A program made the position numbers and the translations under genes. A stretch of 22,978 bases of DNA from a virus: positions 1 to 22,978 of the IMG/VR virus record IMGVR_UViG_3300048440_000256; one strand, 5' to 3'. Below are positions 9,225 to 22,978 of this stretch, in pieces. Numbering within the stretch: the stretch's first letter is position 1; every line of letters starts with the position of its first letter. Below the pieces are notes generated by a model. The model ran no database searches. It was given only the letters and a program-made list of their open reading frames with translations, and had not been told where the DNA came from.

Positions 9225-9382
9225 AATGGTTTTTATTAGTACTAGGAGTTGTAATGGGAGCTATTGTCTGCCATGTATACCAAGAAACTGTAATGAAGAG
9301 TAAAAATTACTGGGAAAACGTTGGACCTATTATGGATGAGCGCTTAAACCCAACTCATTACAATAACGATAAGGTAGATTAA
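9221..9382 (+). CDS. Small single-pass membrane protein
   Basis: A 53-residue protein. Residues 3-19 (WFLLVLGVVMGAIVCHV) form one membrane helix or an uncleaved signal anchor, followed by a polar C-terminal tail. Cys16 is not in a standard lipobox. It overlaps both neighbours by one to four bases (ATGA and TAATG), so it belongs to the same coupled unit. Function unknown. Confidence 0.7.
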   Translation: MKWFLLVLGVVMGAIVCHVYQETVMKSKNYWENVGPIMDERLNPTHYNNDKVD

Positions 9383-9585: not shown

Positions 9586-10306
9586 ATGTTCATTAATGGC
9601 GCAATGCGCACAAATAGCATATATGGATGGAAAAGAAGCCAAGGCTGCATATAAAAAAGTTGGTTACACTTCGCACAAATTTATTGAAAACGATGGAGCT
9701 CAAGTTCATATCGTTTCAAATAAAAGCGAAATAGTATTATGTTTCCGAGGTACTGAGCCTTCTGAGTTTTCTGATATTAAAGCAGACTTAAATGCTTTAC
9801 CAGATAAAGCAGCAAATGGCTATGGATATGTTCATAATGGTTTCCAAACAGAAATTGAAAAAATCTGGGATGAAATTAGAACAGCCATGGCAAAAATGAA
9901 ATTAGAAGGAAAGATGTTTTATATAACTGGGCATTCACTTGGTGGAGCAATGGCTACTATTGCAGCGAGCCGACTGCCTGACGTATGTGATGCGTTATAT
10001 ACATATGGATCTCCAAGAGCAGGAACACGAAAATTTGTTAAAAGCTTTAATCATATTCCTCACTATCGGCATGTCAACAATAATGATATCGTACCAAAAG
10101 TACCGTTCGCATTCCTCGGGTATAGACATACTACCGCTCCGCGTTATATCAATTACTACGGAAAAATTAGAAAAGCTTCCAAATGGCAACGAGTTAAAGA
10201 CCAATGGAGAGGTCGTTGGAGGGCACTGAAAAAAGGAATGCCTTTTGATGGAGCATACGATCATGGTATGAACCATTATTGTAAATATACAAAGGGAAAT
10301 GAATAA
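9575..10306 (+). CDS. Class 3 lipase (alpha/beta hydrolase)
   Basis: A 243-residue protein of the Lipase_3 family. The nucleophile elbow GHSLGG (residues 119-124) holds Ser121. The Asp is probably Asp171 in NNNDIVP, and the His is probably His230 in YDHGMNHY. FRGTEPSEFSD (57-67) and VHNGF (86-90) are typical family segments. The family hydrolyses ester bonds in triacylglycerols or phospholipids. No signal peptide is seen, so it may act on the inner membrane from inside or be released at lysis. The C-terminal region (195-225) is very basic. Both ends overlap neighbouring genes, placing it in the late unit. Confidence 0.9.
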   Translation: MENKCSLMAQCAQIAYMDGKEAKAAYKKVGYTSHKFIENDGAQVHIVSNKSEIVLCFRGTEPSEFSDIKADLNALPDKAANGYGYVHNGFQTEIEKIWDEIRTAMAKMKLEGKMFYITGHSLGGAMATIAASRLPDVCDALYTYGSPRAGTRKFVKSFNHIPHYRHVNNNDIVPKVPFAFLGYRHTTAPRYINYYGKIRKASKWQRVKDQWRGRWRALKKGMPFDGAYDHGMNHYCKYTKGNE

Positions 10307-10623
10307 TGTGGGAAATGTTATCTAATATGGCAGGAGATCGTTTATGGATCTATACTGCGATAGGCGGGTCTATTATTGGACTCGCGTTTTCGACATGGTT
10401 CAGCACCACGCGAATGGCTTTATGGTTATACGCTCGATTTGATAGAGGAATGGATTTCTTGGTTGAACGTTGGGGTTGGACATGGTTAGAGCAGCCGGAA
10501 AATGCTTGGCGTAAAAAGTATCCAAAAATCACTCAAAAGATTGACGATATGGAAATGCGTCTAAAACACTTAGAAACCAAATCTAATACTAAGATTATTA
10601 GACAGAAGGGAACAAAAAAATGA
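10306..10623 (+). CDS. Small membrane protein, unknown
   Basis: A 105-residue protein with one N-terminal transmembrane helix (about residues 14-34, IYTAIGGSIIGLAFSTW). An aromatic amphipathic stretch (RMALWLYARFDRGMDF) and a basic helical C-terminus (KITQKIDDMEMRLKHLE) follow. The start overlaps the lipase stop (TAATG) and the end overlaps the next gene (ATGA). A role with the lipase in host membrane change or lysis is possible but unproven. Confidence 0.75.
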   Translation: MWEMLSNMAGDRLWIYTAIGGSIIGLAFSTWFSTTRMALWLYARFDRGMDFLVERWGWTWLEQPENAWRKKYPKITQKIDDMEMRLKHLETKSNTKIIRQKGTKK

Positions 10624-10778
10624 GCTGGATTAAAAACAGACTAAAAGAAAGAACCACATGGGACGGCGGAGTGTGTATTGCGCTTGGTCTTATGATTTTA
10701 TTTATGGCACCATTGGCTAAAATTGCAGCAGGCGTTGCGATTGCTTGGGGTGCTTGGACTATGTGGAAATCTGAATGA
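10620..10778 (+). CDS. Small membrane protein (52 aa)
   Basis: A 52-residue protein starting MSWIKNRLKERTTWDGG. A basic amphipathic N-terminus precedes two closely packed hydrophobic segments (about 18-31 and 33-47). ATGA overlaps link it to the genes on both sides. I recall similar small proteins in other phages but cannot name a function. A holin-like topology is possible on size alone, with no further support. Confidence 0.7.
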   Translation: MSWIKNRLKERTTWDGGVCIALGLMILFMAPLAKIAAGVAIAWGAWTMWKSE

Positions 10779-11059
10779 TTTTAAATGTCACTGATAGAGC
10801 AAAAGACTATTTAAAGAAAGTCGGTAAGCCAAATGTATCACTTAATGTAAAAGGTGGTGGCTGTTCTGGATTTCAGTATGAGTGGGGAGTTACCGATAAG
10901 GAAGCGACCGTTGATAACTTATGGCTTGACCCAATGGCAGAAATGTTTGTTTTTGGATGTACAGTTGATTACATCGAGGAACTTGGCGGATCTTATTTGA
11001 AGGTGGTAAACCCTAACGCAACTGCATCATGTGGTTGTGGCGAAAGCTTCGCTGTTTAA
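10775..11059 (+). CDS. IscA/HesB-type iron-sulfur cluster carrier
   Basis: A 94-residue A-type carrier. The three conserved cysteines are present: Cys30 in GGGCSGFQY, and Cys86 and Cys88 in the C-terminal SCGCGESF. IscA, ErpA and SufA use these to bind and hand on Fe-S clusters. The length is slightly shorter than bacterial IscA (about 107). The start overlaps the preceding stop (ATGA), so it is part of the late unit and the last gene before a hairpin. Phage homologues are known in marine T4-like viruses. The recipient protein is unknown. Confidence 0.92.
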   Translation: MILNVTDRAKDYLKKVGKPNVSLNVKGGGCSGFQYEWGVTDKEATVDNLWLDPMAEMFVFGCTVDYIEELGGSYLKVVNPNATASCGCGESFAV

Positions 11060-11087
11060 AAAGTATGGCTCCCATTGGGAGTCGTAC
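11056..11087 (-). terminator. Hairpin terminator between convergent genes
   Basis: GTATGGCTCCC (11063-11073) pairs with GGGAGTCGTAC (11077-11087): 11 pairs with two G-U or equivalent wobbles and a 3-base loop. Reading leftward it is followed by five T, so it should end the epimerase transcript. It may also mark the end of the rightward late block, but no T-run is present on that side. Confidence 0.7.
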
Positions 11088-11088
11088 A

Positions 11089-11943
11089 CTAAGCTAGATT
11101 ATATTGGTCTAGGCACATATCATCAAGTGTTTTAGTAAGCTCACACAATTCCGATAAATTATCAACAATACATGAAGTTGCATCACCTGCTCTTCTATCT
11201 GTTAAAACCTTTTTAAGTTTTTTACCAGTAACTCTTTCCATTGAATCAATTACATCTAATACCGAATACCCTTGCGCAGAACCAAGGCATTCATATGGTG
11301 TATTTGTTGGACCGGTTTCTACTGCTTTTACGATAGCGCTACAAAGATCACTAACATGTATATAATCACGTATGCAAGTCCCATCACGAGTAGGGTAGTC
11401 TGTGCCAAAGATTTTAATATCGGGTAATTGTCCGTGAGCAACCAAACTAGCCACGCGAATAAGATGACTTGGAACACCGAGCTGCCGTAATGTCCCATTA
11501 GTGCCAGAAACATTATAAAAGCGAAAAATAGTGTGCCCATTGGCTTTCTCCTTAATTATATCCTCAGCTGCTACTTTGCTACGAGCATATGGCGATGCCA
11601 TTTCAAATGCCGAGCTAGTACTGGCGAATATAAAGTTTGGTGTTTTAACTTTTTTAAGTAAATGGTCAGTACCCATTGCATTTACTCTATAATATTCAGA
11701 TGGCTCTTTAAGACTTTGTGGTACTATACTTCTACCAGCAAGATGAACAACGGCATCAAACTTTTGTTCATTATACATTATGTTTGTAATGTCTACCTTT
11801 TCAAACAAGTCAATAAAAGATACGTCGTTATACTCACCATGGAAATTAATATCCCAGCCTTCAACATAGTGTCCATTTTGTTTCAGTTTGTAACAAACAT
11901 GTGATCCGATATAACCCGTTGCGCCTGTAACTAAAACTTTCAT
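11089..11943 (-). CDS. NAD-dependent UDP-sugar epimerase (GalE-like)
   Basis: A 284-residue short-chain dehydrogenase of the extended type. GATGYIG (residues 7-13) is the NAD-binding loop. HLAGRSIVPQS and STSSAFEM carry the active-site Ser region, and YARSK holds catalytic Tyr119 and Lys123. RFYNVSG and GTCIRDYIHVSDL closely follow UDP-glucose 4-epimerase. It is about 50 residues shorter than typical GalE (about 338), with loss between the Rossmann segments and at the C-terminus. It probably interconverts UDP-hexoses in the cytoplasm, for surface sugar change or nucleotide modification. AAGG precedes the ATG. A late-type box AATAAATA (leftward, 11969-11976) may drive it. The exact substrate is uncertain. 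Confidence 0.88.
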   Translation of the reverse strand: MKVLVTGATGYIGSHVCYKLKQNGHYVEGWDINFHGEYNDVSFIDLFEKVDITNIMYNEQKFDAVVHLAGRSIVPQSLKEPSEYYRVNAMGTDHLLKKVKTPNFIFASTSSAFEMASPYARSKVAAEDIIKEKANGHTIFRFYNVSGTNGTLRQLGVPSHLIRVASLVAHGQLPDIKIFGTDYPTRDGTCIRDYIHVSDLCSAIVKAVETGPTNTPYECLGSAQGYSVLDVIDSMERVTGKKLKKVLTDRRAGDATSCIVDNLSELCELTKTLDDMCLDQYNLA

Positions 11944-11951
11944 TATAAATA
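11944..11951 (+). promoter_or_regulatory. T4-type late promoter with almost no leader
   Basis: An exact TATAAATA lies seven bases before the ATG at 11959. By T4 spacing transcription would begin near 11957, giving a leader of about two bases and no room for a ribosome site. An in-frame TAA at 11950 excludes an earlier start codon. Confidence 0.6.
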
Positions 11952-11958
11952 ACCTTGT

Positions 11959-12507
11959 ATGAAAAATGTATTTATTATAATTACGACACTATTATTTTTG
12001 TCAGGATGTGTAGGTGAGAATGTTCCTATACAACACGTACACATCCCTACTAAACATACATTAACTCACAAAGCCTTTGCATACCATAAACTCGAAGAAG
12101 TAAAAGATCGTAATATTATTTACCAATTACTTGGTGTAGATCCTGTAACAACTGAGTGGTGTGCAGCGTTTGTCAATATGATTTTAGAGCAAAACGGACA
12201 CCCTACTTCTTCTGAAGTAAGCCAATATCCGTTAATGGCTCGTTCGTTTTTAGAGTGGGGAAACCCAGTTAATAAACCTCAGCAAGGCGATGTAGTCATT
12301 TTTACACGTGGGAATAGTGGGTGGCAAGGGCATGTCGGATTCTATGTAAGTACCAAGATTGTGAATGGCCAACCACATTATTCCGTGCTCGGAGGGAATC
12401 AAGACGACGCCGTTTCTATTAAACAGTACCCAGTATCAAATTTAATTGGCATTCGTCGTTCTCCTGTATTGGTACCCGCGGCCGGACTCGAACCGGCAAA
12501 ACTTTGA
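11959..12507 (+). CDS. Lipoprotein with NlpC/P60- or CHAP-like peptidase domain
   Basis: A 182-residue protein. Residues 1-17 form a lipoprotein signal ending in lipobox LSGC, with Cys17 as the lipid-modified residue. The domain has TEWCAAFVN with probable catalytic Cys68, GDVVIFTRG, GHVGFYV with His125, and VLGGNQ. This matches the TIGR02594-type cysteine peptidase group that cuts peptidoglycan peptides. It would sit on the outer membrane facing the periplasm, an unusual place for a phage muralytic enzyme. The last 12 residues (171-182) are read from the antisense of tRNA-Leu and are probably a non-native extension. Only a leaderless late start is visible. Confidence 0.82.
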   Translation: MKNVFIIITTLLFLSGCVGENVPIQHVHIPTKHTLTHKAFAYHKLEEVKDRNIIYQLLGVDPVTTEWCAAFVNMILEQNGHPTSSEVSQYPLMARSFLEWGNPVNKPQQGDVVIFTRGNSGWQGHVGFYVSTKIVNGQPHYSVLGGNQDDAVSIKQYPVSNLIGIRRSPVLVPAAGLEPAKL

Positions 12508-12546
12508 TTTTAAGTCAAATATGTATACCAATTCCATCACGCGGGC
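12470..12546 (-). tRNA. tRNA-Leu (anticodon UAA) with short variable loop
   Basis: The acceptor is GCCCGCG/CGCGGGT (one G-U pair). The D arm is a 3-bp stem (ATG/CAT) with loop GAATTGGTATA, as in leucine tRNAs. The anticodon stem is TTTGA/TCAAA, loop CTTAAAA, anticodon TAA. The T arm is GCCGG/CCGGC with loop TTCGAGT, and CCA is encoded. The variable region is only five bases (GTTTT), whereas bacterial tRNA-Leu has a long variable arm. It overlaps the 3' end of the lipoprotein gene on the other strand. Confidence 0.88.
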
Positions 12547-12555
12547 TAACAGTCT

Positions 12556-12738
12556 CTATGTAGACTGAAGGTTTATGCAAACTGCTTGTTGTCCGGGTTT
12601 AAAATACCCAGCGCCTTTTCCAACTTCATCAGCCAATGCTTCTCTACCTCTAAAGCATTCAGTCATTGAAGTATATACGTCATATGTTTCTACGTATGGT
12701 GTTGAGTCATAAAAATATATAAAGACTAATACCCACAT
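12556..12738 (-). CDS. Small hypothetical protein between tRNA genes
   Basis: A 60-residue protein. AGGAAAC precedes the ATG at proper spacing. The N-terminus MWVLVFIYFYD is hydrophobic and aromatic. The rest has a conserved-looking core, TECFRGREALADEVG, ending GQQAVCINLQ, with two cysteines. I recall relatives in other marine phages but no function. It sits between tRNA-Leu and tRNA-Gln and must be co-transcribed with them. Confidence 0.75.
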   Translation of the reverse strand: MWVLVFIYFYDSTPYVETYDVYTSMTECFRGREALADEVGKGAGYFKPGQQAVCINLQST

Positions 12739-12754
12739 TTTGTTTCCTATTATT

Positions 12755-12829
12755 TGGCTGGAACGATAGGACTCGAACCTATACTCTGCGCTACCAAAAA
12801 GCGATGCATTACCATTATGCTACGTTCCA
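12755..12829 (-). tRNA. tRNA-Gln (anticodon UUG)
   Basis: The acceptor is TGGAACG/CGTTCCA, matching the weak first pair seen in tRNA-Gln. The D arm is GCAT/ATGC with loop AATGGTA. The anticodon stem is TCGCT/AGCGC with an unpaired outer position and loop TTTTGGT, anticodon TTG. The T arm loop is TTCGAGT and the encoded end is GCCA. It reads CAA and CAG. Confidence 0.9.
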
Positions 12830-12838
12830 TTATTGATT

Positions 12839-12916
12839 TGGTGATTCCTGTAGGACTCGAACCTACGACCTAGTGCTTAGAAGGCACTTGCTCTAATCCG
12901 GCTGAGCTAAGGAACC
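12839..12916 (-). tRNA. tRNA-Arg (anticodon UCU)
   Basis: The acceptor is GGTTCCT/AGGAATC with one G-U pair. The D arm is GCTC/GAGC, the anticodon stem AGTGC/GCACT with loop CTTCTAA (anticodon TCT), and the T arm GTAGG/CCTAC. CCA is encoded. It reads AGA, the codon favoured in AT-rich phage genes and rare in many hosts. Its first base is shared with the stop codon of the upstream 55-residue gene. Confidence 0.93.
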
Positions 12917-13083
12917 TATGCTGCTTTTACTTTAGCTTTCAAAACTTCAGCAACCTCATTGGCTGCCTCTAATGTTTCAAACTTTAAGTCAACTACTTTT
13001 GACTCTCTAAAGTTATCGTTTGTTGGTCCAACCATTATAATATGCTGAACCACACTCTTGTTGCGAAGTAATATGTATGGCAT
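12916..13083 (-). CDS. Small hypothetical protein (55 aa)
   Basis: A 55-codon frame starting MPYILLRNKSVVQH and ending in a Lys/Ala-rich helix (EVLKAKVKAA). AAGGA precedes the start. Residues 5-35 look like two or three beta strands, then a helix, as in small nucleic-acid- or protein-binding folds. It overlaps tRNA-Arg by one base at its stop. Family unknown. Confidence 0.68.
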   Translation of the reverse strand: MPYILLRNKSVVQHIIMVGPTNDNFRESKVVDLKFETLEAANEVAEVLKAKVKAA

Positions 13084-13179
13084 TTATTTGTCTATTTCCT
13101 TTTGTATTATCATGTAAGGAATTGATCCTACTGTAATATATATTGTCCAAAAGATAATGTTATAGATTAATATTTCCAT
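13084..13179 (-). CDS. Very small membrane peptide (31 aa)
   Basis: A 31-codon frame whose ATG overlaps the stop of the glycine-zipper gene (TAATG), ending directly before the next small gene. Residues 3-24 are hydrophobic (ILIYNIIFWTIYITVGSIPY), followed by QKEIDK, so it looks like a single-pass membrane peptide. Support is the tight packing and membrane-like sequence; there is no independent ribosome site. Confidence 0.55.
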   Translation of the reverse strand: MEILIYNIIFWTIYITVGSIPYMIIQKEIDK

Positions 13180-13670
13180 TAACGTTGAAACCTTAGAGCG
13201 TATTCTTGTCCACCAGATCGGAAGTGAATAATAGAATGACTATATACTTCGCGTTCTTTGTTAACATATGTAGTGCGCGTTCCACATTGACGTTCGGTTT
13301 CATATCCAACAATGCGTTGCTCTGTTCGAGTTTGACCTTCATTCGCGCCAATAACTCCTCCTAAGACCGCACCGGCGGCTGCCCCTCCATCATCTCCGGT
13401 TACCCCTTTGCCAAGGATACCTCCGAGGATCATACCGAGTAAGGCGCCACCACCTGCATCACCTTGTGTAGTCACAGATGAGTAGATAGGTACTTTAACG
13501 TTTTCACAGACCTCTTGTGTACTTGGTACTGATGTTACTATGGTCTTATTGTAATCAACAACTCGCACTTTGCTTGGTTGTTCAGCCATAGATATGGTAG
13601 GCGCCGCCAGTGCGGTCACTAGAACTAGTGAAGCAATTGCCGCACTAGTATTCTTTAAACTATTATTCAT
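13179..13670 (-). CDS. Exported glycine-zipper (2TM) protein
   Basis: A 163-residue protein. The ATG at 13670 is preferred over 13685 because GGAG lies between them at good spacing. A signal peptide (about 1-30) ends in SMAEQ. Residues about 65-110 contain GGGALLGMILGGILGKG and GAAAGAVLGGVIG, the paired glycine-zipper helices of the 17 kDa surface antigen/2TM family, with a Gly/Asp spacer. The C-terminus (ERQCGTRTTYVNKERE) is basic with a Cys; another Cys is at QEVCENV. The family inserts in or spans envelope membranes. An early role in altering the host envelope, for example exclusion of other phages, is possible. Confidence 0.85.
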   Translation of the reverse strand: MNNSLKNTSAAIASLVLVTALAAPTISMAEQPSKVRVVDYNKTIVTSVPSTQEVCENVKVPIYSSVTTQGDAGGGALLGMILGGILGKGVTGDDGGAAAGAVLGGVIGANEGQTRTEQRIVGYETERQCGTRTTYVNKEREVYSHSIIHFRSGGQEYALRFQR

Positions 13671-13899
13671 AAGGTTGTTCTCCATATGTAGTTTCTAAAT
13701 CAACGATTGGTTCTGACCCTTCAGCTTCTAAAATAAGGTCAAGTTCATTACCTTCCCAAACGGAAGTTTTGTTATCCCAATATTTATCTGTTAAATCAGT
13801 TAACGACATAGAGAAGCTATCCTCAATGTTATCTATACCCCAGTCTCTAATATCAGAGATTAGCATATCTTCAAAAGATGGTGAGTAATCAATATTCAT
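13663..13899 (-). CDS. Hypothetical acidic early protein (78 aa)
   Basis: A 78-residue very acidic protein (DMLISDIRDWGIDNIEDS, LDLILEAEGSEP). No membrane or signal segment is seen. The start overlaps the previous stop by one base and the end overlaps the glycine-zipper start by eight bases. It shares the promoter at 14161. Such acidic proteins can mimic DNA, but nothing specific supports that here. Confidence 0.7.
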   Translation of the reverse strand: MNIDYSPSFEDMLISDIRDWGIDNIEDSFSMSLTDLTDKYWDNKTSVWEGNELDLILEAEGSEPIVDLETTYGEQPYE

Positions 13900-14129
13900 T
13901 ATAAAACCTTCCGTGCATACTTAATAACTTGAATATCTACAGGTAGTAGATTTTTCATTGAGCCTGTTTCAGCCATTTCCTCACCGATACGTGAGAAAGC
14001 ATTTAGAATTTCTAAAGGTACATTCATATTCAATCCATCTTCCGAAAAACTCATCATCTTACGACCAAATGCAGCGATACGTCTTTGTCTTGCAGTTTGC
14101 TCGAAGAATGTTAGATTAATTGAAGCCAT
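13899..14129 (-). CDS. Hypothetical early protein (76 aa)
   Basis: A 76-residue, mostly helical protein starting MASINLTFFEQTARQRRIAAFG. A basic patch (RQRRIAAFGRKM) lies near the N-terminus and an amphipathic helix (LEILNAFSRIGEEMAE) in the middle. GAAAGAG precedes the ATG. It is first behind its own consensus early promoter. Family unknown. Confidence 0.72.
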   Translation of the reverse strand: MASINLTFFEQTARQRRIAAFGRKMMSFSEDGLNMNVPLEILNAFSRIGEEMAETGSMKNLLPVDIQVIKYARKVL

Positions 14130-14160
14130 ATTGATTCTCTTTCTGTTTGTTTATTTAATT

Positions 14161-14189
14161 AATATAACTGATTCTATAAAGAATGTCAA
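14161..14189 (-). promoter_or_regulatory. Early sigma-70 promoter P4
   Basis: TTGACA, 17 bases, TATATT on the leftward strand with AGAATCAG before the -10 box. It is likely to drive five small genes and the tRNA-Arg, -Gln and -Leu genes downstream. Confidence 0.85.
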
Positions 14190-14197
14190 CAGTTAAT

Positions 14198-14362
14198 TTA
14201 CACAAATCCTAAAAAAGCTGCACCTAAACAACCTGCGATAACACCAACTAGGGCCCAAGCAAGCATACCAAGTTCTCCTTCAGGAGTTTTAGTATCACTA
14301 ATGAATTGTGCTCCAATTAACATTCCAAGAGTTGACCCTATAATTATCGTTGCAAAAAACAT
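14198..14362 (-). CDS. Small two-helix membrane protein (54 aa)
   Basis: A 54-codon frame starting MFFATIIIGSTLGMLIGAQF. Two glycine-rich membrane helices (about 2-20 and 33-53) are joined by a short polar turn (SDTKTPEGE). AAGGAATTACAC precedes the ATG and a consensus promoter lies directly upstream. GxxxG-type spacing in both helices suggests tight packing. An early membrane protein, perhaps of superinfection exclusion type, is only an inference. Confidence 0.72.
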   Translation of the reverse strand: MFFATIIIGSTLGMLIGAQFISDTKTPEGELGMLAWALVGVIAGCLGAAFLGFV

Positions 14363-14388
14363 GTGTAATTCCTTTATTTGTTGATTCT

Positions 14389-14417
14389 AATATAACTGAT
14401 TCTATATCAAATGTCAA
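14389..14417 (-). promoter_or_regulatory. Early sigma-70 promoter P5
   Basis: TTGACA, 17 bases, TATATT on the leftward strand. AGAATCA occurs on both sides of the -10 box, 15 bases apart, as a direct repeat. It drives the 54-residue membrane protein gene. Confidence 0.85.
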
Positions 14418-14420
14418 TAG

Positions 14421-14804
14421 TTAAAGTGCAATTAAATTAGTAAATCTTGTCACTAACGGAATTGCATTTGAAAAAGCTTCTTCTTCCCACCAACGATCTG
14501 CATATGGCATATCAACGTTTTCGTCTAGTAAACGTCCAAGGTTTTGAGTCATATATTGTTTGACATGGATCATTTCGTGAGCAATCGTTGTAAACATATG
14601 ACCAAGATCTCTATTGTCTTTTACTAATATAGTAAACTTACCATCAGGCTCGTCAAAGCACATACCATTGTTTCCAACTAAATCATGTGCCTCAACAGAA
14701 ACTTTTCTTGGTAATATTCCATACTCTTTGCATATCCATTTAACGAACCGAGCTGCAAGATCATTTAGAGCAGAGTCTTCAGAAATGTATACGTCAATAA
14801 TCAT
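14421..14804 (-). CDS. HExxH metallopeptidase-like protein, copy 2
   Basis: A 127-residue protein with HEMIHVKQY (zinc ligands His76 and His80, catalytic Glu77) and a later WWEEEAF (105-111) that may give the third ligand. This is the SprT/zincin-like layout in a very small domain. The upstream gene encodes a paralogue with the same two motifs. Starts and stops overlap by four bases. No signal peptide is seen, so it acts in the cytoplasm or as a virion part. Substrate unknown. Confidence 0.78.
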   Translation of the reverse strand: MIIDVYISEDSALNDLAARFVKWICKEYGILPRKVSVEAHDLVGNNGMCFDEPDGKFTILVKDNRDLGHMFTTIAHEMIHVKQYMTQNLGRLLDENVDMPYADRWWEEEAFSNAIPLVTRFTNLIAL

Positions 14805-15220
14805 CTAAGTCTTTTCTTTAGTATTTCAGTTGAAAAAATTGCCCACATGGCAGCTTCAGTTTCATATGCTTCACGTTCCCACGGTAAATCCCAATAGTTA
14901 TCTCCTTTAATTGGTTTACCAAACCAACGCGACGGTTTCTTTCCTACGCCAGAAATAAGTTCGCCTTTAATATATTGTTTGGCATGTACCATTTCGTGGA
15001 ATAGAGTTTTACATATTTCAGTTCTACTTAATGTTGGTTTAATACCTATGGTAATACCTTCCTCATTGTAATTACAGTAACCACACTCTTCGTCAAAGTC
15101 GTCCTCAAAGTCAATCTCAATTGTTTCATCAATCTCTAAAAAGTCGGCTGCAAATACTACCATCTTATCCATTAAAGGATTTGATACTTTTTTTGGTTTA
15201 CCGTAGGTTGAGTAATACAT
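14801..15220 (-). CDS. HExxH metallopeptidase-like protein, copy 1
   Basis: A 139-residue protein with HEMVHAKQY (His75, Glu76, His79) and WEREAYE (114-120) as probable third ligand, the same scheme as its downstream neighbour. The acidic middle (DFEDDFDEECGYCNYNEE) contains a CxxC pair. It begins at the stop of the preceding gene (TAATG). Part of the gp52 transcription unit. Substrate unknown. Confidence 0.78.
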   Translation of the reverse strand: MYYSTYGKPKKVSNPLMDKMVVFAADFLEIDETIEIDFEDDFDEECGYCNYNEEGITIGIKPTLSRTEICKTLFHEMVHAKQYIKGELISGVGKKPSRWFGKPIKGDNYWDLPWEREAYETEAAMWAIFSTEILKKRLR

Positions 15221-15402
15221 TAGTTCTTTTCAATCAGTATGTCAAGTTTTGACTCAATAGAATCTAATCTGTCTAAGACAAGGTCAAATGATTCTTCTAA
15301 TGTTAACTCAGGTTGAACTGGGTTTTGTGTTAAACCAGTTACAAAGTCCATATCCATTTCCATGGGTTCTTCGGCAAGTGGTTTTTTAAACATATTAAAC
15401 AT
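15220..15402 (-). CDS. Small hypothetical protein (60 aa)
   Basis: A 60-residue protein. The ATG at 15402 is preferred over the TTG at 15411, since AAGGAA sits nine bases before it and it follows the gp52 stop by one base. The C-terminal half (ESFDLVLDRLDSIESKLDIL) is a likely coiled coil. The N-terminus is Met/Pro-rich. Function unknown; co-expressed with gp52. Confidence 0.68.
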   Translation of the reverse strand: MFNMFKKPLAEEPMEMDMDFVTGLTQNPVQPELTLEESFDLVLDRLDSIESKLDILIEKN

Positions 15403-15403
15403 A

Positions 15404-16753
15404 TTACTCAATTCCTTCTAAATCTAAAATAAACTGTTTCTTTGGCGTTGTATTTGTCCAGTAACGAACATCCTTTTCAGCCTTTGCGATTTCTTTAGCA
15501 AGTTCTTTGACCATCTCGTCAGTCAAACTCATAATGTTAATACGAAGCAGCCGGTCTACATCGGCATCAGTTGCTTCAGTGTTAGCTAGGATTTGTACGC
15601 CAACAGCTTTTTTCTTTTGGTTTTTAAACTTAATCTTATCATCAAGAACAGCTTGAATAAACTGCATTTTAATTTTTAACCAACGAATTTCCTCGGCAGC
15701 TTCAACCAATCGCAATTCAATTCTCTTTTGTAATACACCAATACGGAATTCACAAAAGTCTTTAATTAAATCACGTTCATCTTCGTACTCACGTAGTCTA
15801 CCATTCTCATCAATTACCGTAAGGTTTTCAGATAACGGTTTAGTCAGTTTAAACTTACGAATAATACGTTCATCTGTCCAAGCATTTGCTGAAGCCAGTT
15901 TTAACTTGATTTCAAACTTAAAACCTTGCTTATCGCATTTGTCCTCATAAGAGACGATATCGTTGTCATCTTCCAATCTATTCAATACTTTAACGTATGA
16001 CTCACGATCATACCCATATGGTACTTCAGTAATGGTTAGTACTGTCTTACTGTTACGTACAAAGGTGCCATTCACAATAAAGCGTTTGTTTTCAATATCA
16101 TACGTGACAGAACCACCAAATTCAGGGAATGACACTGGAAGCCTGTTCGCTATATTACCGTTCAGCAAATATTCACGAACTGCACGAGAGAGATCATTAG
16201 GGGACCGTGGAAGGATGTTGGTAGCAAATCCAGTAGCAATACCCTTAGTTCCGTTAGCCAATACTAGAGGGATTACTGGTAGATAGTATGAAGGAGGCTC
16301 ATGCTCAGGATCATCGTGTACTGGTGATAGATCCATATCTTTAACGTATTTTTCAAAGTTATTATGAACTCGAGTATAAACATAACGTGCAGCTCCGGGT
16401 TCCTGTACTAATCGAGTACCAAAAGAACCTCTACCTTCAACCAAACAAACATTGTTGTTCCATGTAGCTGCCATAAGTTGACCGGCACCTGCAGCCGATG
16501 CTTCACCGTGGTTATATCCATAATCTGAAATGATACCAGCAACTGCTGATACCTTTTTAAAATCTCTTTTGGAATTCAATAGAGAACTATAAAGATAAAA
16601 ACGTTGAACTGGTTTTAAACCATCAATCATATTTGGAATGGCACGTGATTCAACCGTGTACATGGCAAATGAAAGCCATTCGTTTTTAGCTACGTGGCTG
16701 ATTGGATAATCATTAGTATTAACGTCATCCTTAGTAAATTCTAATATACTCAT
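15404..16753 (-). CDS. 52: DNA topoisomerase II medium subunit (gp52)
   Basis: A 449-residue protein, close to T4 gp52 (442). It is the GyrA-like DNA breakage and rejoining subunit. RYVYTR carries the active Tyr124 after Arg123, within EGRGSFGTRLVQEPGAARY, the GyrA-type active-site segment. IDGLKPVQR near residue 43 is the usual entry motif. The C-terminal third is helical coiled coil. It works with the gp39/60 product to relax and decatenate DNA during phage replication. The start follows AAAGGAC and a sigma-70 promoter at 16782. The C-terminal DNA-wrapping domain of GyrA is absent, as in T4. Confidence 0.96.
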   Translation of the reverse strand: MSILEFTKDDVNTNDYPISHVAKNEWLSFAMYTVESRAIPNMIDGLKPVQRFYLYSSLLNSKRDFKKVSAVAGIISDYGYNHGEASAAGAGQLMAATWNNNVCLVEGRGSFGTRLVQEPGAARYVYTRVHNNFEKYVKDMDLSPVHDDPEHEPPSYYLPVIPLVLANGTKGIATGFATNILPRSPNDLSRAVREYLLNGNIANRLPVSFPEFGGSVTYDIENKRFIVNGTFVRNSKTVLTITEVPYGYDRESYVKVLNRLEDDNDIVSYEDKCDKQGFKFEIKLKLASANAWTDERIIRKFKLTKPLSENLTVIDENGRLREYEDERDLIKDFCEFRIGVLQKRIELRLVEAAEEIRWLKIKMQFIQAVLDDKIKFKNQKKKAVGVQILANTEATDADVDRLLRINIMSLTDEMVKELAKEIAKAEKDVRYWTNTTPKKQFILDLEGIE

Positions 16754-16781
16754 AAAGTATTGTCCTTTTTGATTCTATAGT

Positions 16782-16810
16782 ATTCTATCACACTTTTAAC
16801 GTAATGTCAA
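16782..16810 (-). promoter_or_regulatory. Early sigma-70 promoter P6 for gp52
   Basis: TTGACA, 17 bases, TAGAAT on the leftward strand, followed by AGAATCAA. The block TGTGATAGAAT also occurs in the uvsY promoter, marking a subclass of this promoter family. Confidence 0.82.
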
Positions 16811-16816
16811 TAAACA

Positions 16817-18640
16817 TTATGCAAACATATATTCTTTGCGTAAAGAACTATCTTTCCCAAACATCATTTGGAATATGGAAGCATCATCAACTGTTACAGT
16901 ATCATATTGTGGTTTATTAATAATCACGTCATATTCTTCTTCGGTAAGTGATCCGAGACCTTTAATGTAACGATGTTTCCAACCTGCTTGATTGTCAGTC
17001 TTAAACTTAGATGCTGTTTCATAGTTATAAAACCACTCGACTTTATCACCTTTAGATGAAATCATAATTGGTGTACGAGTAATCTTTACATGTTTTTCAG
17101 TTAACAAACGTGGCCAAAACTTATAGAAGAAAGCAATAAGCAGCGGACTAATATGACCAATACCATCGTGGTCAGCATCAGTTAGTGTAGCAATATTCTC
17201 ATATGTCATATCATCAACACTATTTGGATCATTGATATTTAATCCAAGAACATTAACCAATTCTGACAACTCTTTGTTTTTAAGTACATCAGCAGGTTTC
17301 ATATCCCACGTATTCATAATCACACCTCGGAGAGGGTAAGCACCAACTTTATCGGCATCTCTTACTTTTAACAAGAAGCCCATCGCTGAGTCACCTTCAA
17401 CGATTTTTAATGTAGCATCGTTTCGATTTGCTGAGATATGTTTAGCAACCTTAACTCGTTGAAGTTTTTTCTGAGCCATCGTGGCTGCTCGTTTGTCGGC
17501 TGCTATCTTTTTAGCCAACTGAGCCTCAATGATTGGATCAATAATATCTGGATTATTAATAATCTTACGAGCATAGAATTGGAAGTCTTTACAATCAGCA
17601 CCTTGAAAGTGCTCACGAACGTTAGTCATTGGATTTGTTAGACGTTCTTTAGTTTGTGAGTCAAACTTTGGATTAACGAAATTACGAGCGAATAGTACAA
17701 AGGTTAATCCACCTTTAATAGTATTCTTTGCGACTTCAACTTTATATTTACGTTTGACCATTGTTACCAATTCGTCAACAATACCATTCACTACGAAATC
17801 AACATATGTACCACCCATTCGAGTATTCACACCATTAATAAAAGAGTTAGTTCGGAAACCATCCTCTGATGTAGTAAAGAAGAATGAAACGTTTTCAGAC
17901 TTTTCAATTACAACATTTGGATTAAACAATGCTGAATACTTTTTCATATCGGATACTGAAATCTTTTTCTTATTGAAAGAGAACTTGATTTCAGGAAAAG
18001 CCATTTGTAGACTCATTAAACGATCTTCGAGTAATTCAATAGTATCCAAGTTGGCAAGACAATCAGTTTCAAAACAATCGAAGTCTGCAACGAACGATAC
18101 TTCAGTACCAGAACCATTCTTATCTCGTGTAGTAACTTTAACATCTTCGCCGCCATTTTTACAAGTAACCATAATCTGATTACCTTTTGACCACGTTTTA
18201 CCAGTAAACTTTGATGAAAGAAAGTTGGTAGCAGCTGAACCGACACCGTTAGTACCGATTGTTACACGTTCATCATCAAACGATGTACCGGCATTTACTC
18301 GAGTCCAAGCAGCCACTGGTCGAAGGATTTGTTCCTTACTGGTTTCGTCGTATATCTCATCTTGTGGAATACCACGACCGTTATCAGTAACGGTTACCAT
18401 ATCCATATTAATAGATACATCAATTTTATTCGCATGTTTAAAGTTAGTACGAATTGCCTCGTCAATCGAGTTATCAAGTATTTCGTCAATCATTTTAGAA
18501 AGCGCAGGTACATACTTTGATGTTTTCCATTCGCCTTTCACAAAACGTTCAACCGATTCTTGAGAACTTGAACCAAGGTACATACCAATACGTTCTCTAA
18601 CGTGTTGACGTGCTGTTAAAATTCTAAAGTCATTACTCAT
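16817..18640 (-). CDS. 39: DNA topoisomerase II large subunit (gp39 and gp60 in one chain)
   Basis: A 607-residue ATPase subunit. The GHKL ATP site has EILDNSID (Glu53 as base, Asn57 binding Mg), DNGRGIP (86-92) and GTNGVG (129-134); QTK (329-331) is the ATP-sensing loop. The TOPRIM domain has EGDSA with Glu415 and DADHD (488-492). In T4 itself the TOPRIM part lies in separate gene 60, while here both halves form one continuous chain, the common state in other T4-like phages. It pairs with gp52. The end lies close to the gp52 promoter. The start has GGAGC at normal spacing. Confidence 0.96.
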   Translation of the reverse strand: MSNDFRILTARQHVRERIGMYLGSSSQESVERFVKGEWKTSKYVPALSKMIDEILDNSIDEAIRTNFKHANKIDVSINMDMVTVTDNGRGIPQDEIYDETSKEQILRPVAAWTRVNAGTSFDDERVTIGTNGVGSAATNFLSSKFTGKTWSKGNQIMVTCKNGGEDVKVTTRDKNGSGTEVSFVADFDCFETDCLANLDTIELLEDRLMSLQMAFPEIKFSFNKKKISVSDMKKYSALFNPNVVIEKSENVSFFFTTSEDGFRTNSFINGVNTRMGGTYVDFVVNGIVDELVTMVKRKYKVEVAKNTIKGGLTFVLFARNFVNPKFDSQTKERLTNPMTNVREHFQGADCKDFQFYARKIINNPDIIDPIIEAQLAKKIAADKRAATMAQKKLQRVKVAKHISANRNDATLKIVEGDSAMGFLLKVRDADKVGAYPLRGVIMNTWDMKPADVLKNKELSELVNVLGLNINDPNSVDDMTYENIATLTDADHDGIGHISPLLIAFFYKFWPRLLTEKHVKITRTPIMISSKGDKVEWFYNYETASKFKTDNQAGWKHRYIKGLGSLTEEEYDVIINKPQYDTVTVDDASIFQMMFGKDSSLRKEYMFA

Positions 18641-18665
18641 TCAAAAGCTCCATTATTTCGCTATA

Positions 18666-18713
18666 TTATATATAACCTATCCAGTGTGTGCTATCATCGC
18701 AAGGATCATCCAT
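18666..18713 (-). CDS. Possible 15-residue leader peptide upstream of gp39
   Basis: A short frame, MDDPCDDSTHWIGYI, has a strong AAGGAAGA site six bases before its ATG and ends 26 bases before the gp39 start. The very acidic peptide has no known relatives that I recall. The ribosome site is better than that of many real genes here. It could be a regulatory leader or chance. Confidence 0.3.
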   Translation of the reverse strand: MDDPCDDSTHWIGYI

Positions 18714-18773
18714 GCAATCTTCCTTTGTTATTGCTGGGAATACTATTTATTTAGAATCAGTAAACCCTATTTA

Positions 18774-18781
18774 GATAAATA
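18774..18781 (+). promoter_or_regulatory. Possible late promoter, variant box GATAAATA
   Basis: One mismatch to TATAAATA. The expected start near 18787 gives a 36-base leader to the virion gene at 18823, the same spacing as the clearer late promoters in this window. Confidence 0.5.
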
Positions 18782-18822
18782 CTACCACAGTTCTAAACAA
18801 ATGTAAACAGGAAAATGATCCA

Positions 18823-19311
18823 ATGAACACTAATTTTTTATCTCCTATTGGTTTTACAGTCAATGTCAAACGATTACCTAACGTAGAATTCTTTACTCAA
18901 AGGATGCAAGTTCCGGGTGTAAGTGCTGGTGCAGCGGAAACGCCAAACCCTCTAAGTACTTTATATAATACTCCTGATAAGTTATTGTACCAAGAATTAG
19001 ATCTAAGCTTTATCGTAGACGAAAACATGGCAAATTATTTTGAATGTTTAGATTGGATAGAATCTATTACGTCTCCAGTAGAACTTGCTCAGTTTGCTAA
19101 ATTAGGTAAAACAGACGATGGAATTGTTTCTGATATTTCTATCACTATATTAAATAGCCACAAAAATCCTAACATATCATTTACGTTTTTAAACTGCTTT
19201 CCAGTATCGTTAAGTCAGATTACTTTAGACGTAACACAACAGGATATCGTATACCCAGAAGCGTCGATGGTATTCAGATACGACAGGTTTACTCATACAA
19301 AAATTGGTTGA
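18823..19311 (+). CDS. Tail-tube-fold virion protein (gp19-like)
   Basis: A 162-residue protein, the length of T4 gp19 (163). The N-terminus NTNFLSPIGFTVNVKRLPNV and the pattern PGVSAG...P....L, YQELDLSFIVDENM.NYFECLDWI match tail-tube-type structural proteins of marine T4-like phages as I recall them. Related copies serve as the tail tube or as baseplate/tube junction proteins; I cannot choose between these. AGGA precedes the start. A late-type box lies upstream. Its stop codon lies inside the -35 box of the uvsY promoter. Confidence 0.85.
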   Translation: MNTNFLSPIGFTVNVKRLPNVEFFTQRMQVPGVSAGAAETPNPLSTLYNTPDKLLYQELDLSFIVDENMANYFECLDWIESITSPVELAQFAKLGKTDDGIVSDISITILNSHKNPNISFTFLNCFPVSLSQITLDVTQQDIVYPEASMVFRYDRFTHTKIG

Positions 19312-19336
19312 CATTCTAACAAAACTGTGATAGAAT
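19308..19336 (+). promoter_or_regulatory. Early sigma-70 promoter P7 for uvsY
   Basis: TTGACA, 17 bases, TAGAAT on the rightward strand. The -35 box contains the stop codon of the preceding virion gene. It shares TGTGATAGAAT with the gp52 promoter. Confidence 0.82.
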
Positions 19337-19365
19337 TATAACTATATACATTATGAGAGGTTAAC

Positions 19366-19803
19366 ATGAGTACTGAAGACATTAGTGAAATCTGGGCTGG
19401 TGATGCCAAAATTGATGAAACTCAATTGGCACAAGAAGCAAAAAAGATTCCGCAGCTCCATTCTAAATACTATAACATGTACTATAAAGAAGCGCTTAAA
19501 GTTAAGAAGCTTAGGTATGATTATAAAATACTTGAAATGAACAAACGAGAATGGATTGACGGATCTATGGCTGAAGAAGATTTACGTGAGTTTGGATGGA
19601 AACCTTTTCAGAAAAAAGTCATACGTCAAGATATGGATAAGTATATCCAAGCTGATCCTGATATTATCAAATTAAGTTTAAAAATTGATTATCATAGCTG
19701 CAGGGCAAATTACCTTGAAGATATTGTTAAAACAATTCATAGTCGTAACTTCATTATTAATAATATTATAGCAGTGATGAAGTTCCAAGCCGGAGATTAC
19801 TAA
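19366..19803 (+). CDS. uvsY: UvsY recombination mediator
   Basis: A 145-residue protein, like T4 UvsY (137). The layout IDETQLAQEAKKIPQLHSKY near residue 16, a basic helical middle, DMDKYIQADPDIIKLSLKI, and the terminal pattern IHSRNFIINNI..MKFQAG closely follow UvsY of T4 and cyanophages. UvsY is a hexamer that loads the UvsX recombinase on gp32-coated single-stranded DNA. AGAGG precedes the ATG at 19366. It has its own early promoter, while uvsW downstream has a late one. No UvsX lies in this window. Confidence 0.9.
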   Translation: MSTEDISEIWAGDAKIDETQLAQEAKKIPQLHSKYYNMYYKEALKVKKLRYDYKILEMNKREWIDGSMAEEDLREFGWKPFQKKVIRQDMDKYIQADPDIIKLSLKIDYHSCRANYLEDIVKTIHSRNFIINNIIAVMKFQAGDY

Positions 19804-19915
19804 GATTCTTATTAAGCCTATCACACCAGTTTATAAACCAGTTATTCTACTCGACAAACGTAAAGAAATCGAGGACCGGATAGACTATATAAATAGTATT
19901 AAGAAAACTGATTAA
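19796..19915 (+). CDS. Possible small ORF downstream of uvsY lacking a standard start codon
   Basis: An open frame of 39 codons (ITKILIKPITPVYKPVILLD, then a charged helix KRKEIEDRIDYINSIKKTD) lies one base ahead of the uvsY frame and overlaps its end. It has no ATG, GTG or TTG after its upstream stop. CCGGAG precedes an ATT that could serve as a rare start; alternatively it could be reached by a +1 frameshift at the uvsY stop. The sequence looks protein-like. It also contains the uvsW late promoter. Confidence 0.35.
   Translation: MTKILIKPITPVYKPVILLDKRKEIEDRIDYINSIKKTD
19888..19895 (+). promoter_or_regulatory. T4-type late promoter for uvsW
   Basis: An exact TATAAATA; the expected start near 19901 gives a 31-base leader to the uvsW ATG. 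T4 uvsW is also a late gene, so function and position agree. Confidence 0.8.
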
Positions 19916-19931
19916 AGTGTAAGGTTATATT

Positions 19932-21425
19932 ATGTCTGATGTGATTAACGTTGAGCAAATCAACGCAGTGTATTTGAAAATCAATACAGAGTCAAGCGTT
20001 AAGTTTGAATTAGAAGCTTACTTCAAATTTCAACCCGCCGGATTCCAGTTTAACCCTTCATATAAGAATAGAATTTGGGACGGATGGATTCGTATTTTCC
20101 AACCACTCAAACCTGTACTTTATGTAGGGTTATTTAGTAAGCTGCGGAAGTTTTGTGAAGATCGTGGATATGAGTTAAATGCTCCTGCACATTTGATGGA
20201 AGGCGAAAAAGTTCCTGACGATTATGGATATGAGATTGCTAAGGAAGTAAACTGTAAGTTTGAGCCTCGTGATTATCAGAATCAATATATCGTTGATGCC
20301 ATACGTGATAGTCGTTCTTTATCTTTATCACCAACATCATCTGGTAAATCACTTATCATTTATTTAATTCAGCAGCATTATTATAGAGCGTTTGAACATC
20401 GTACTTTGATTATTGTTCCAACGATATCATTAGTACATCAGATGGCTGGCGATTTTATTGATTATGGTTGTGATCCATCTCACATATATAAAATCCAAGG
20501 TGGTATTGATAAAAACACAGATGCACCTATTGTTATATCGACTTGGCAGTCTCTTATTAAATTAAGGAAAGATTGGTTTAGTCAATTTAAAGTAGTACTT
20601 GGAGATGAAGCACATTTATTCCAAGCGAAATCATTACAAAAAATTATGGGAGGGCTTGACGAATGTTATTATCGACATGGATTTACCGGTACGTTAAAAT
20701 CGGAAGAGAGCAAAACGCATAGACTGGTCCTTGAAGGCTGCTTTGGTTCTGTTCGTAAGCATGTATCTACTAAAGATCTTATGGATGACGGTACTATTGC
20801 TGACTTTAATATAAAAGCAATTGTATTGTCTCATAGCGTTGAAAATAGAAAAGCGTTTAAAAAGGCAATAAGTAAAGTACAAAATACAAGTCAAAAGTAT
20901 CCTGCTGAAAGAGAATACATAACGAACCACGAGAAGCGAAATATATTCATACGAAATCTATTGTGGTCACTCAAAGATCAAAACAATTTGGTTCTATTTG
21001 ACTTAGTTGAAAAACATGGTAAAATATTAGAGCCAATGTTAAGAACAGAAGGTAGAGAATTACATTTCATTTATGGTGCAACAAAAGGCACAGAACGTGA
21101 AAGAATTCGCCATATGATTGAGAACGATCCTATTAAACAACATGATATCCTTGCGTCGTTTGGTACATTCTCAACTGGAATTAATTTAAAGAAACTTGAT
21201 AATGTTATATTCGCATCTGGATCTAAATCGGAAGTGAAAGTACTCCAATCAATCGGCCGTGCCCTAAGAAAGGGCAACGATGCCGATAAAGCTACGCTTT
21301 ACGATATTGCTGATGATTTGAGTGTTGGTGCCTACCAGAATTATACTTTACAACATTTTAGGAAACGGATTGAAATATATGGGTCCGAGCAGTTTAATGT
21401 AAAGATTTATACGGTGAACATATAA
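19932..21425 (+). CDS. uvsW: UvsW DNA/RNA helicase
   Basis: A 497-residue superfamily 2 helicase, matching T4 UvsW (503). Walker A is SPTSSGKS (133-140), motif II is DEAH (225-228), motif III is FTGT (251-254) and motif VI is QSIGRALRKG (439-448). The N-terminal 110 residues form the DNA-binding domain (NRIWDGWIRIF). UvsW unwinds R-loops and branched DNA, ending origin-dependent replication and supporting recombination-dependent replication. The late promoter upstream and AAGG before the start fit late expression. A consensus sigma-70 promoter just after its stop points back into it. Confidence 0.96.
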   Translation: MSDVINVEQINAVYLKINTESSVKFELEAYFKFQPAGFQFNPSYKNRIWDGWIRIFQPLKPVLYVGLFSKLRKFCEDRGYELNAPAHLMEGEKVPDDYGYEIAKEVNCKFEPRDYQNQYIVDAIRDSRSLSLSPTSSGKSLIIYLIQQHYYRAFEHRTLIIVPTISLVHQMAGDFIDYGCDPSHIYKIQGGIDKNTDAPIVISTWQSLIKLRKDWFSQFKVVLGDEAHLFQAKSLQKIMGGLDECYYRHGFTGTLKSEESKTHRLVLEGCFGSVRKHVSTKDLMDDGTIADFNIKAIVLSHSVENRKAFKKAISKVQNTSQKYPAEREYITNHEKRNIFIRNLLWSLKDQNNLVLFDLVEKHGKILEPMLRTEGRELHFIYGATKGTERERIRHMIENDPIKQHDILASFGTFSTGINLKKLDNVIFASGSKSEVKVLQSIGRALRKGNDADKATLYDIADDLSVGAYQNYTLQHFRKRIEIYGSEQFNVKIYTVNI

Positions 21426-21448
21426 TATTGTTTATAAGACATAAGTCT

Positions 21449-21477
21449 ATTATACCATACCTAAATAGTGATGTCAA
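21449..21477 (-). promoter_or_regulatory. Consensus sigma-70 promoter antisense to uvsW
   Basis: The leftward strand reads TTGACA, 17 bases, TATAAT: both boxes are perfect and the spacing ideal. It begins 24 bases after the uvsW stop and points into that gene. No leftward gene follows. An antisense RNA is the simplest product. Confidence 0.75.
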
Positions 21478-21511
21478 TAGAAAAATGTAGTAGTACTGAA
21501 AAAAGTTTTAG

Positions 21512-21540
21512 TTGACACCACGCGATTACTATGTTATTAT
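21512..21540 (+). promoter_or_regulatory. Early sigma-70 promoter P8 for the gp55 unit
   Basis: TTGACA, 17 bases, TATTAT on the rightward strand, followed by AGAATCAG near the start point. It drives the 67-residue gene, gp55 and gp47, and is back to back with the antisense promoter. Confidence 0.83.
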
Positions 21541-21567
21541 TATATAGAATCAGATAGGAATAATAGA

Positions 21568-21771
21568 ATGATTAAAGTAGGTGACTTGGCTTATTCTCGG
21601 CATGGTCTTGCTAGAATTACATCGATGGAAATTACAAAAGATGGTGGTAAGTATGGTGAAGATGTGTTATCTATTTCAGACGATTTAAAAGACTGGTGTG
21701 TATTTGACTTTGATAATGGTCACTGGGCTTATGGAACACAAGTTACATTAATTAATAAGGAGGTTGGCTGA
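21568..21771 (+). CDS. Small hypothetical protein upstream of gp55
   Basis: A 67-residue protein starting MIKVGDLAYSRHGLARITSM, ending in GHWAYGTQVTLINKEVG. It looks like a small beta-barrel (KOW/SH3-like: VGDLAY...GLARITS...VFDF.NGHWAYG). Similar proteins occur near gp55 in other marine T4-like phages as I recall. Function unknown. AGGAATAAT precedes the start. Its end carries the AGGAGG ribosome site of gp55. Confidence 0.75.
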   Translation: MIKVGDLAYSRHGLARITSMEITKDGGKYGEDVLSISDDLKDWCVFDFDNGHWAYGTQVTLINKEVG

Positions 21772-21775
21772 CCAT

Positions 21776-22321
21776 ATGGCAAAAAGAGCTAAAAGAAACT
21801 ATGTTAACAATGCAGACTTTTTAGAAGCATTAATTGCATATAAAAAAGCGTGTACCGAAGCAGAAGATGCCGGTGACGAAAAACCAAGGTGTCCAGACTA
21901 TATCGGTAAGTGCATCTATCAAATCGCAACAAGACTTGCGACAAAACCAAACTTTAGTGGATATTCATATAAAGATGATATGATTTCAGATGGTATTGAA
22001 AATTGTCTATTATATATGGGTAACTTTAATTCTGAAAAGTCTTCTAATCCATTTGCATACTTTACTCAAATTATTTGGTACGCATTCTTAAGACGTATTC
22101 AAAAAGAGAAAAAGCAAATGTATATTCGTTTTAAATCGTCACAAGTTATGGTTGCATCAGGCGGTACATATTCTGGTGATGAAGTAAATTTAAATCTTAA
22201 TACCAATGTTGATTATATGAATTCGTTTGTTCAAGATTACGAAGATAAGATTGCAAAAGATAAAGCGAAAAAGAAAGAATCAATCGAAGCAGCGGCTAAT
22301 GAAGAGGAATCTAAAGAGTGA
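21776..22321 (+). CDS. 55: Late-transcription sigma factor gp55
   Basis: A 181-residue protein (T4 gp55: 185). RNYVNN at residues 6-11, NFSGYSYKDDMISDGIENCL (about 62-81) and NPFAYFTQIIWYAFLRRIQKEKK (about 93-115) are the conserved core, equal to sigma region 2. It directs host RNA polymerase to TATAAATA late promoters, several of which occur here. ATG 21776 is chosen over an in-frame TTG at 21764, which overlaps AGGAGG; the resulting spacing of about 12 bases is a little long. The C-terminus is charged (ESIEAAANEEESKE) and lacks an obvious hydrophobic clamp-binding end like that of T4. Confidence 0.95.
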   Translation: MAKRAKRNYVNNADFLEALIAYKKACTEAEDAGDEKPRCPDYIGKCIYQIATRLATKPNFSGYSYKDDMISDGIENCLLYMGNFNSEKSSNPFAYFTQIIWYAFLRRIQKEKKQMYIRFKSSQVMVASGGTYSGDEVNLNLNTNVDYMNSFVQDYEDKIAKDKAKKKESIEAAANEEESKE

Positions 22322-22978
22322 AGGTTGCTATAATTACAGACATGCATCTCGGTGTGCGTGGCGATTCTAAGGTATTTCTGGATCATCAAGAAAAGTTTTT
22401 TAATGAAGTGTTCTTTCCACATTTAGATGAACATAACATTAAAACAGTATTGGATCTAGGCGATACCTTTGACCGTCGTAAGTACATCAATTATGTTACA
22501 CTTGATAGGGCTAAAAAGTTTTTCTTTGATGAACTACAAAAGCGTGACATTGAATACCATGCAGTTGTAGGTAATCACTCCGTATATTATACAAACACAA
22601 ATGAAGTTAACTCAATGAACTTGTTACTCCAAGAGTATACAAACTTCAACATATATCGTGAAGAACCTGTTGAGTTGACATTTGGGTCAACTAATGTTAT
22701 AATGGTACCATGGATTACGAAAACAAATTCTGAAGTATGTTTAGACGCCATACGTAAATCAAGTGCTCATATATGTATGGGTCACTTTGATATTATTGGT
22801 TTTGAAATGCTGAAGGGTGCGATTTGTGATCATGGTCTAACTAAAGAATTGTTTGGTAGTTATGAACAAGTTTATTCTGGTCATTTCCACCATCCATCTG
22901 AATATGGTAACATCAACTATCTTGGTGCTCCATATGAAATGACATGGTCTGATTATCAAGGTAAACGTGGCTTTCGTA
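22318..22978 (+). CDS. 47: Recombination endonuclease subunit gp47 (5' part, cut by window end)
   Basis: The first 220 codons of an Mre11/SbcD-like nuclease (T4 gp47: 339 residues). Metallophosphoesterase motifs appear in order: DMHLG, GDTFDRR, GNHSVYY, MGHFD and SGHFHH, giving the two-metal site. With gp46 it forms the phage Mre11-Rad50 complex that resects DNA ends and helps degrade host DNA. A GTG start at 22318 overlaps the gp55 stop, with GAGGAA eight bases upstream, so translation is likely coupled. Confidence 0.95.
   Translation, partial: MKVAIITDMHLGVRGDSKVFLDHQEKFFNEVFFPHLDEHNIKTVLDLGDTFDRRKYINYVTLDRAKKFFFDELQKRDIEYHAVVGNHSVYYTNTNEVNSMNLLLQEYTNFNIYREEPVELTFGSTNVIMVPWITKTNSEVCLDAIRKSSAHICMGHFDIIGFEMLKGAICDHGLTKELFGSYEQVYSGHFHHPSEYGNINYLGAPYEMTWSDYQGKRGFR

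Follow-up and report, generated by a model that had tools for sequence, protein, structure and literature searches.

Convergent promoters silence opposing units by transcription interference in phage 186 and at the helD and pps genes of B. subtilis (PMC12802891). The replication origins of phage T4 are regions of about 100 bp that combine a promoter with an A+T-rich unwinding element (PMC3016281). At the ops site, a non-template-strand DNA hairpin recruits RfaH (PMC5995543). T4-like cyanophages are without MotA and AsiA, and their early/middle control is still an open question in the field (PMC2984593). Two promoter surveys of interest here predicted sigma70 promoters by program, and the accessible portions of these papers make no mention of the element described below (PMC3037559, PMC9004378), which looks like an unrecognised control element of marine T4 relatives.

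The element, which we call P_L, is an antisense promoter in a viral DNA stretch of 22,978 nucleotides (IMG/VR record IMGVR_UViG_3300048440_000256; this whole stretch is referred to as the window). As in phage 186, helD and pps, a strong promoter opposes a sense unit, an arrangement that can silence without a protein product (PMC12802891). However, the antisense promoters of helD and pps lie near the sense promoter at the 5′ end of the gene, whereas P_L is found at the 3′ end, with about 1.5 kb between it and the late promoter, and it carries a covarying inverted repeat at its start site, unlike either of them. P_L also resembles oriF/ori(uvsY), oriG and oriE of T4 in being promoter-driven, in its probable non-coding function and in its position near uvsY-uvsW; oriF and oriG use MotA middle promoters with an unwinding element, and the accessible part of the source describes no start-site hairpin for them (PMC3016281). 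With RfaH/ops (PMC5995543) it may share a small non-template hairpin in the transcription bubble, functional in ops and a candidate in P_L, but ops is an elongation pause site of fixed sequence, whereas the P_L arms are free in sequence and the repeat sits on the start site. The T4-like cyanophage S-PM2 has the antisense RNA CfrI, but its locus is another one, at psbA and the gene for a homing endonuclease (cited in PMC2984593).

On the minus strand of the window, TTGACA (21477-21472) and TATAAT (21454-21449) are separated by a 17-bp spacer and match the consensus at 12/12 positions, exactly where a sequence-only reading had placed a perfect promoter antisense to the 3′ end of uvsW. A TG one base upstream of the −10 box makes it an extended −10. 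From sigma70 spacing, transcription is predicted to start at an A 7 nt past the −10 box (21442, minus strand). The inverted repeat AGAC-TTAT-GTCT abuts the −10 box at 21448-21437, from about −6 to +6, and is followed by an A+T-rich initial transcribed stretch, TATAAACAATATT (21424-21436, minus strand), which is conserved in the window family only. P_L faces the 3′ end of the gene for a uvsW-like DNA helicase (19932-21425, plus strand; PHROG 16, E 1.5e-88), which ends 24 bp beyond the P_L −10 box. The late promoter that the sequence-only reading had assigned to uvsW was found as a late-type TATAAATA at 19888-19895 on the plus strand, and a uvsY-like recombination mediator is encoded before it (19366-19803, plus strand; PHROG 231, E 7.4e-35). 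On the other side of P_L, a 34-bp gap with an A-tract, a possible UP element (21478-21511), separates its −35 box from that of P_R (21512-21540, plus strand, TTGACA-17-TATTAT). P_R is the promoter of a 67-aa ORF without assigned function (21568-21771, plus strand), of a gp55-like late sigma factor (21776-22321, plus strand; PHROG 234, E 6.6e-60) and of gp47.

We counted 84 promoter-like sites in window positions 3000-22978, compared with 79 in shuffles. Since weak sites are no commoner than in shuffled sequence, a single match proves little, and conservation is the proof. P_L had also been called the best promoter in the window; its perfect match stands, but it is only joint best among the 84 sites, tied with a second 12/12 promoter inside gp47 (22675-22703, plus strand). 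The latter occurs in several relatives too, and its conservation is ambiguous because the stretch is coding.

An IMG/VR search with the uvsW protein returned 67 loci and an alignment search added more, from which we took 36 non-redundant loci with uvsW 60-100% identical. Retention of the boxes in relatives had been set beforehand as a check on the sequence-only reading, and they are retained: the best antisense site downstream of uvsW scores 12/12 in 33 loci, 11/12 in two and 10/12 in one, with a spacer of 16 or 17, although only 0.007 sites of 12/12 are expected per 60-nt antisense window from the site density of the same loci. The P_L hexamer positions are 97-100% conserved (each −35 position at least 97% in 35 relatives), whereas most spacer positions are 34-74% conserved. 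Judged by this conservation, P_L is not a chance match. Its −10 box lies 7-42 bp from the stop codon of the last gene, whatever that gene is, with two exceptions at 120 and 200 bp. Among distant metagenomic relatives (uvsW 43-49%), P_L is common but not universal; many of them have no site of at least 10/12 within 480 bp of gp55, and extra genes explain some of these gaps. A second TTGACA lies 5-6 bp upstream of the P_L −10 box in L091, L092, L100, L126, L140, L142 and L423.

Cyanophages and pelagiphages rank among the most abundant viruses known. Of the 21 tabulated Kyanoviridae isolates, from about 20 genera, 20 carry P_L, placed between the uvsW unit and gp55. The S-N03 copy is weak (9/12), P_L was not recognisable in Melnitz-3, and Mosig is a further isolate with P_L beyond the 21. 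The cyanophages that carry it include S-PM2, P-SSM2, S-CRM01, S-SSM7 and P-SSM4, and the Pelagibacter phages HTVC008M (AGGC-ATGT-GCCT) and Mosig (AACGG-TGT-CCGTT) have both the promoter and the repeat. In S-PM2, P-SSM2, P-TIM68 and S-SZBM1, P_L is the sole TTGACA-16/17-TANAAT on the antisense strand of the genome. The conservation thus supports P_L as a real promoter of sigma70 type, strongly conserved and running antisense to the end of the late uvsW unit at its 3′ side; being of sigma70 type, it is probably early. One non-coding antisense promoter across the Kyanoviridae, laboratory isolates S-PM2 and P-SSM2 included, offers a concrete site for asking how these phages time early and late transcription in the absence of the MotA/AsiA system of T4 (PMC2984593).

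The promoter is only part of the feature, and the sequence-only description, right as to the boxes, had missed the covarying inverted repeat past the −10 box. Among relatives, the arms change together (AGAC-TTAT-GTCT, AGGC-TTAT-GCCT, AGCC-TTAT-GGCT, AGGG-TTATG-CCCT, CTGA-TTTA-TCAG, TCGA-TTTA-TCGA and others), but their sequence is otherwise free: 14 distinct stems occur. A perfect 4-bp stem is present in 21 of 25 distinct start regions of the window family, against an expectation of 1.8 of 25 in shuffles (maximum 6 in 1000) and 2.4 of 25 when arms are swapped between relatives (maximum 8 in 1000). These 25 regions came from loci picked by the uvsW protein only. They carry the statistic on which we rely, because some loci of a larger set of 68 elements were fetched with hairpin-shaped patterns, making that set partly hairpin-selected. 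Of the other strong promoters at these loci, 488 in number, 7% carry such a stem. Among the isolates (20 with Mosig added and Melnitz-3 and S-N03 omitted), 14 have a stem of at least 4 bp and six are without a 4-bp stem. The most constant part of the loop is a T-purine-T, with the purine 7 nt past the −10 box. Sigma70 promoters normally start about 7 nt past the −10 box. Given the extent of the repeat, about −6 to +6, the right arm alone would enter the RNA. Imperfect stems in the 68-element set contain T.G six times and C.A once, small numbers that point to a structure on the leftward, non-template strand. A possible interpretation of these patterns is a non-template-strand hairpin with the predicted +1 in its loop. 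The free single-stranded hairpins are weak, at −1.8 to −3.7 kcal/mol (−1.8 kcal/mol in the window), so any effect would need the open bubble.

Other accounts of the repeat fit less well. A dimeric repressor operator at the start site is unlikely, as arm sequence and spacing vary freely among close relatives while complementarity is kept. A structure in the rightward mRNA is disfavoured by the T.G wobbles on the leftward strand, few as they are. Read rightward, the repeat has no T run and is not among the predicted intrinsic terminators. With its free arms and 14 distinct stems, the repeat also does not follow the ops consensus. The virion RNA polymerase of phage N4 uses hairpin promoters with an inverted repeat of variable sequence. 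Those hairpins serve a single-subunit phage polymerase, lie upstream of the start and come with no −35/−10 boxes, unlike P_L. A limited search of the open-access literature gave no description of a covarying repeat with a sigma70 start site at its centre. Such a repeat would be unusual among promoters and of interest to work on promoter escape.

The pairing of P_L with uvsW is neither constant nor exclusive. The gene that it adjoins in cyanophages and pelagiphages is a 'methylamine utilization' or Sm-like gene, which in cyanophages lies between P_L and uvsW. In L148-L150, an extra small gene stands between uvsW and gp55, and after it the promoter, with its start-site repeat, is present twice in tandem at a distance of about 75-105 bp (L148:6733-6878); tandem copies also occur in L317 and L350. 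A 175-bp insertion parts uvsW from an intact element in L028 and L029. This insertion of about 175 bp (L028:7494-7720) contains two near-identical repeats of about 35 nt and also inverted GGCAACGATC/GATCGTTGCC arms. Pattern scans of the collection, whose counts are lower bounds, located the element in a second set of T4-like contigs too, where it occupies the end of an unrelated late gene, for a nucleotidyltransferase-cupin. This locus B is seen at L330:1700-1800 and in at least L162, L313, L316, L323, L333-L336, L339, L341, L343 and L357. Among the matches listed, the −10 box is 21-35 bp from the nucleotidyltransferase-cupin stop. Its back-to-back neighbour is the late-type TATAAATA promoter from which the following gene would be read, and at least two locus-B contigs carry the T4-type capsid gene gp23. 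uvsW is absent from all locus-B contigs searched, among the matches listed, so that loci A and B were not seen together in one genome. On the plus strand of L330 (6726-11002), also a T4-like contig, at least three genes in a row resemble radical SAM/SPASM maturases by eye. What stays constant is a near-perfect promoter, an antisense position at the end of a late unit and the start-site repeat.

The leftward direction, in which the sequence-only reading had seen no gene to serve, indeed yielded none. No leftward ORF that begins close to the P_L start is conserved among relatives, no terminator occurs within 700 nt leftward in 35 relatives, and no Rfam match lies leftward of P_L. The RNA sequence is not conserved past about +20, nor is it shared by loci A and B. 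A ribosome-binding site and a start codon follow the ordinary promoters of these phages about 30 nt downstream, whereas P_L has neither. A hidden leftward gene or sRNA was therefore set aside, and read-through into the topoisomerase genes 2.8 kb leftward was rejected as a general explanation because those genes mostly have their own promoters, although these promoters are weak in the window group. P_L thus has the placement of a cis-antisense or interference element, on the opposite strand, facing a sense gene and coding for nothing itself.

The element is secure; its function we infer. We tentatively favour, at somewhat less than even confidence, P_L as a dedicated non-coding convergent promoter that works by transcription interference as a gate or boundary between early and late expression. 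Early in infection, unmodified host RNA polymerase would occupy and fire P_L. The near-consensus boxes would favour tight binding and slow escape, and the small non-template hairpin in the initial bubble may further hold the polymerase or recruit a factor. Interference by the sitting or converging polymerase, with or without antisense RNA, would silence the late unit and read-through past its end until the late sigma factor gp55 takes the polymerase, and P_L would then be quiet. UvsW would be one beneficiary in the window family and not the sole target. Such a block could not be absolute. In L046- and L017-type relatives no promoter is evident for the next gene, which begins directly behind P_L; late transcription there has to cross P_L, which also makes a strict insulator or terminator unlikely. 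Each genome or contig showed P_L at only one or two positions, a small number if it were a general boundary device. To the broader proposal, that promoters with an initiation hairpin occur family-wide in marine T4-like phages, the non-template hairpin at +1 making a polymerase-holding gate (or an R-loop origin) that separates early from late, we give close to an even chance.

The main rival to the gate is an R-loop replication origin like oriF or oriG of T4, in which the leftward RNA remains hybridised, primes the leading strand and opens the non-template strand, to be removed later by UvsW. We consider it unlikely. T4 origins are promoter-driven and oriE uses an early-mode promoter (PMC3016281). 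An origin would account for a P_L that needs no gene product and whose non-template strand may be structured, and P_L shares with oriF a place in the uvsY-uvsW region. The T4 relative RB3 also has uvsY transcribed in the direction of the 3′ end of uvsW. The window is A+T-rich directly past the start, but this holds for the window family and, by eye, not for S-PM2, P-SSM2 or HTVC008M. The repeat reaches −6, where the initiation bubble opens but an R-loop does not start. A switch in strand composition is a common, though not strictly defining, sign of an origin, and T4 uses several origins. GC skew does not change sign at P_L in seven isolate genomes, weak evidence since the skew is dominated by the coding strand.

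The sequence-only reading suggested that P_L is aimed at uvsW, with early antisense RNA specifically blocking leaky uvsW expression until late. Its position, its strand and the late promoter of uvsW agree with this, as does T4 UvsW, which unwinds origin R-loops and acts late (PMC3016281); moreover, P_L stays at the uvsW 3′ end in L043, L046 and L051 although extra genes separate it from gp55. The uvsW target region shows no synonymous-site constraint (observed/expected 1.17-1.27 at the 3′ end), but a perfectly complementary cis-antisense RNA would need none. The specific aim at uvsW did not hold up, since the same element adjoins the locus B gene, the cyanophage Sm-like gene and the L148-L150 extra gene and is parted from uvsW by the L028 insertion. 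As this account also leaves the start-site repeat unexplained, we regard it as quite improbable. P_L might instead mainly serve P_R, as its divergent partner, by competing for polymerase or by providing negative supercoils, given that the −35 boxes stand back to back, with 34 bp between them in the window and about 5 bp in S-PM2. That is very doubtful, for P_L is still present when P_R is missing or another gene has displaced it (L016, L017, L046), and its neighbour at locus B is a late-type promoter. There is only a slim chance that P_L makes a short trans-acting RNA or peptide: the promoter is strong and early and the first 20 nt or so are conserved in the window family, but the conservation stops there, and ORF, terminator and Rfam match are all missing.

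Elsewhere in the window, a TAGAATCA motif recurs at 3789-3817, 4088-4116, 14161-14189, 14389-14417, 16782-16810 and 21512-21560. It lies in or just past TTGACA-17-TATATT/TAGAAT/TATTAT promoters of several genes and may be an early/middle control motif common to them. The minus strand also carries four tRNA genes (Rfam RF00005), at 12473-12916 and 2907-2980.
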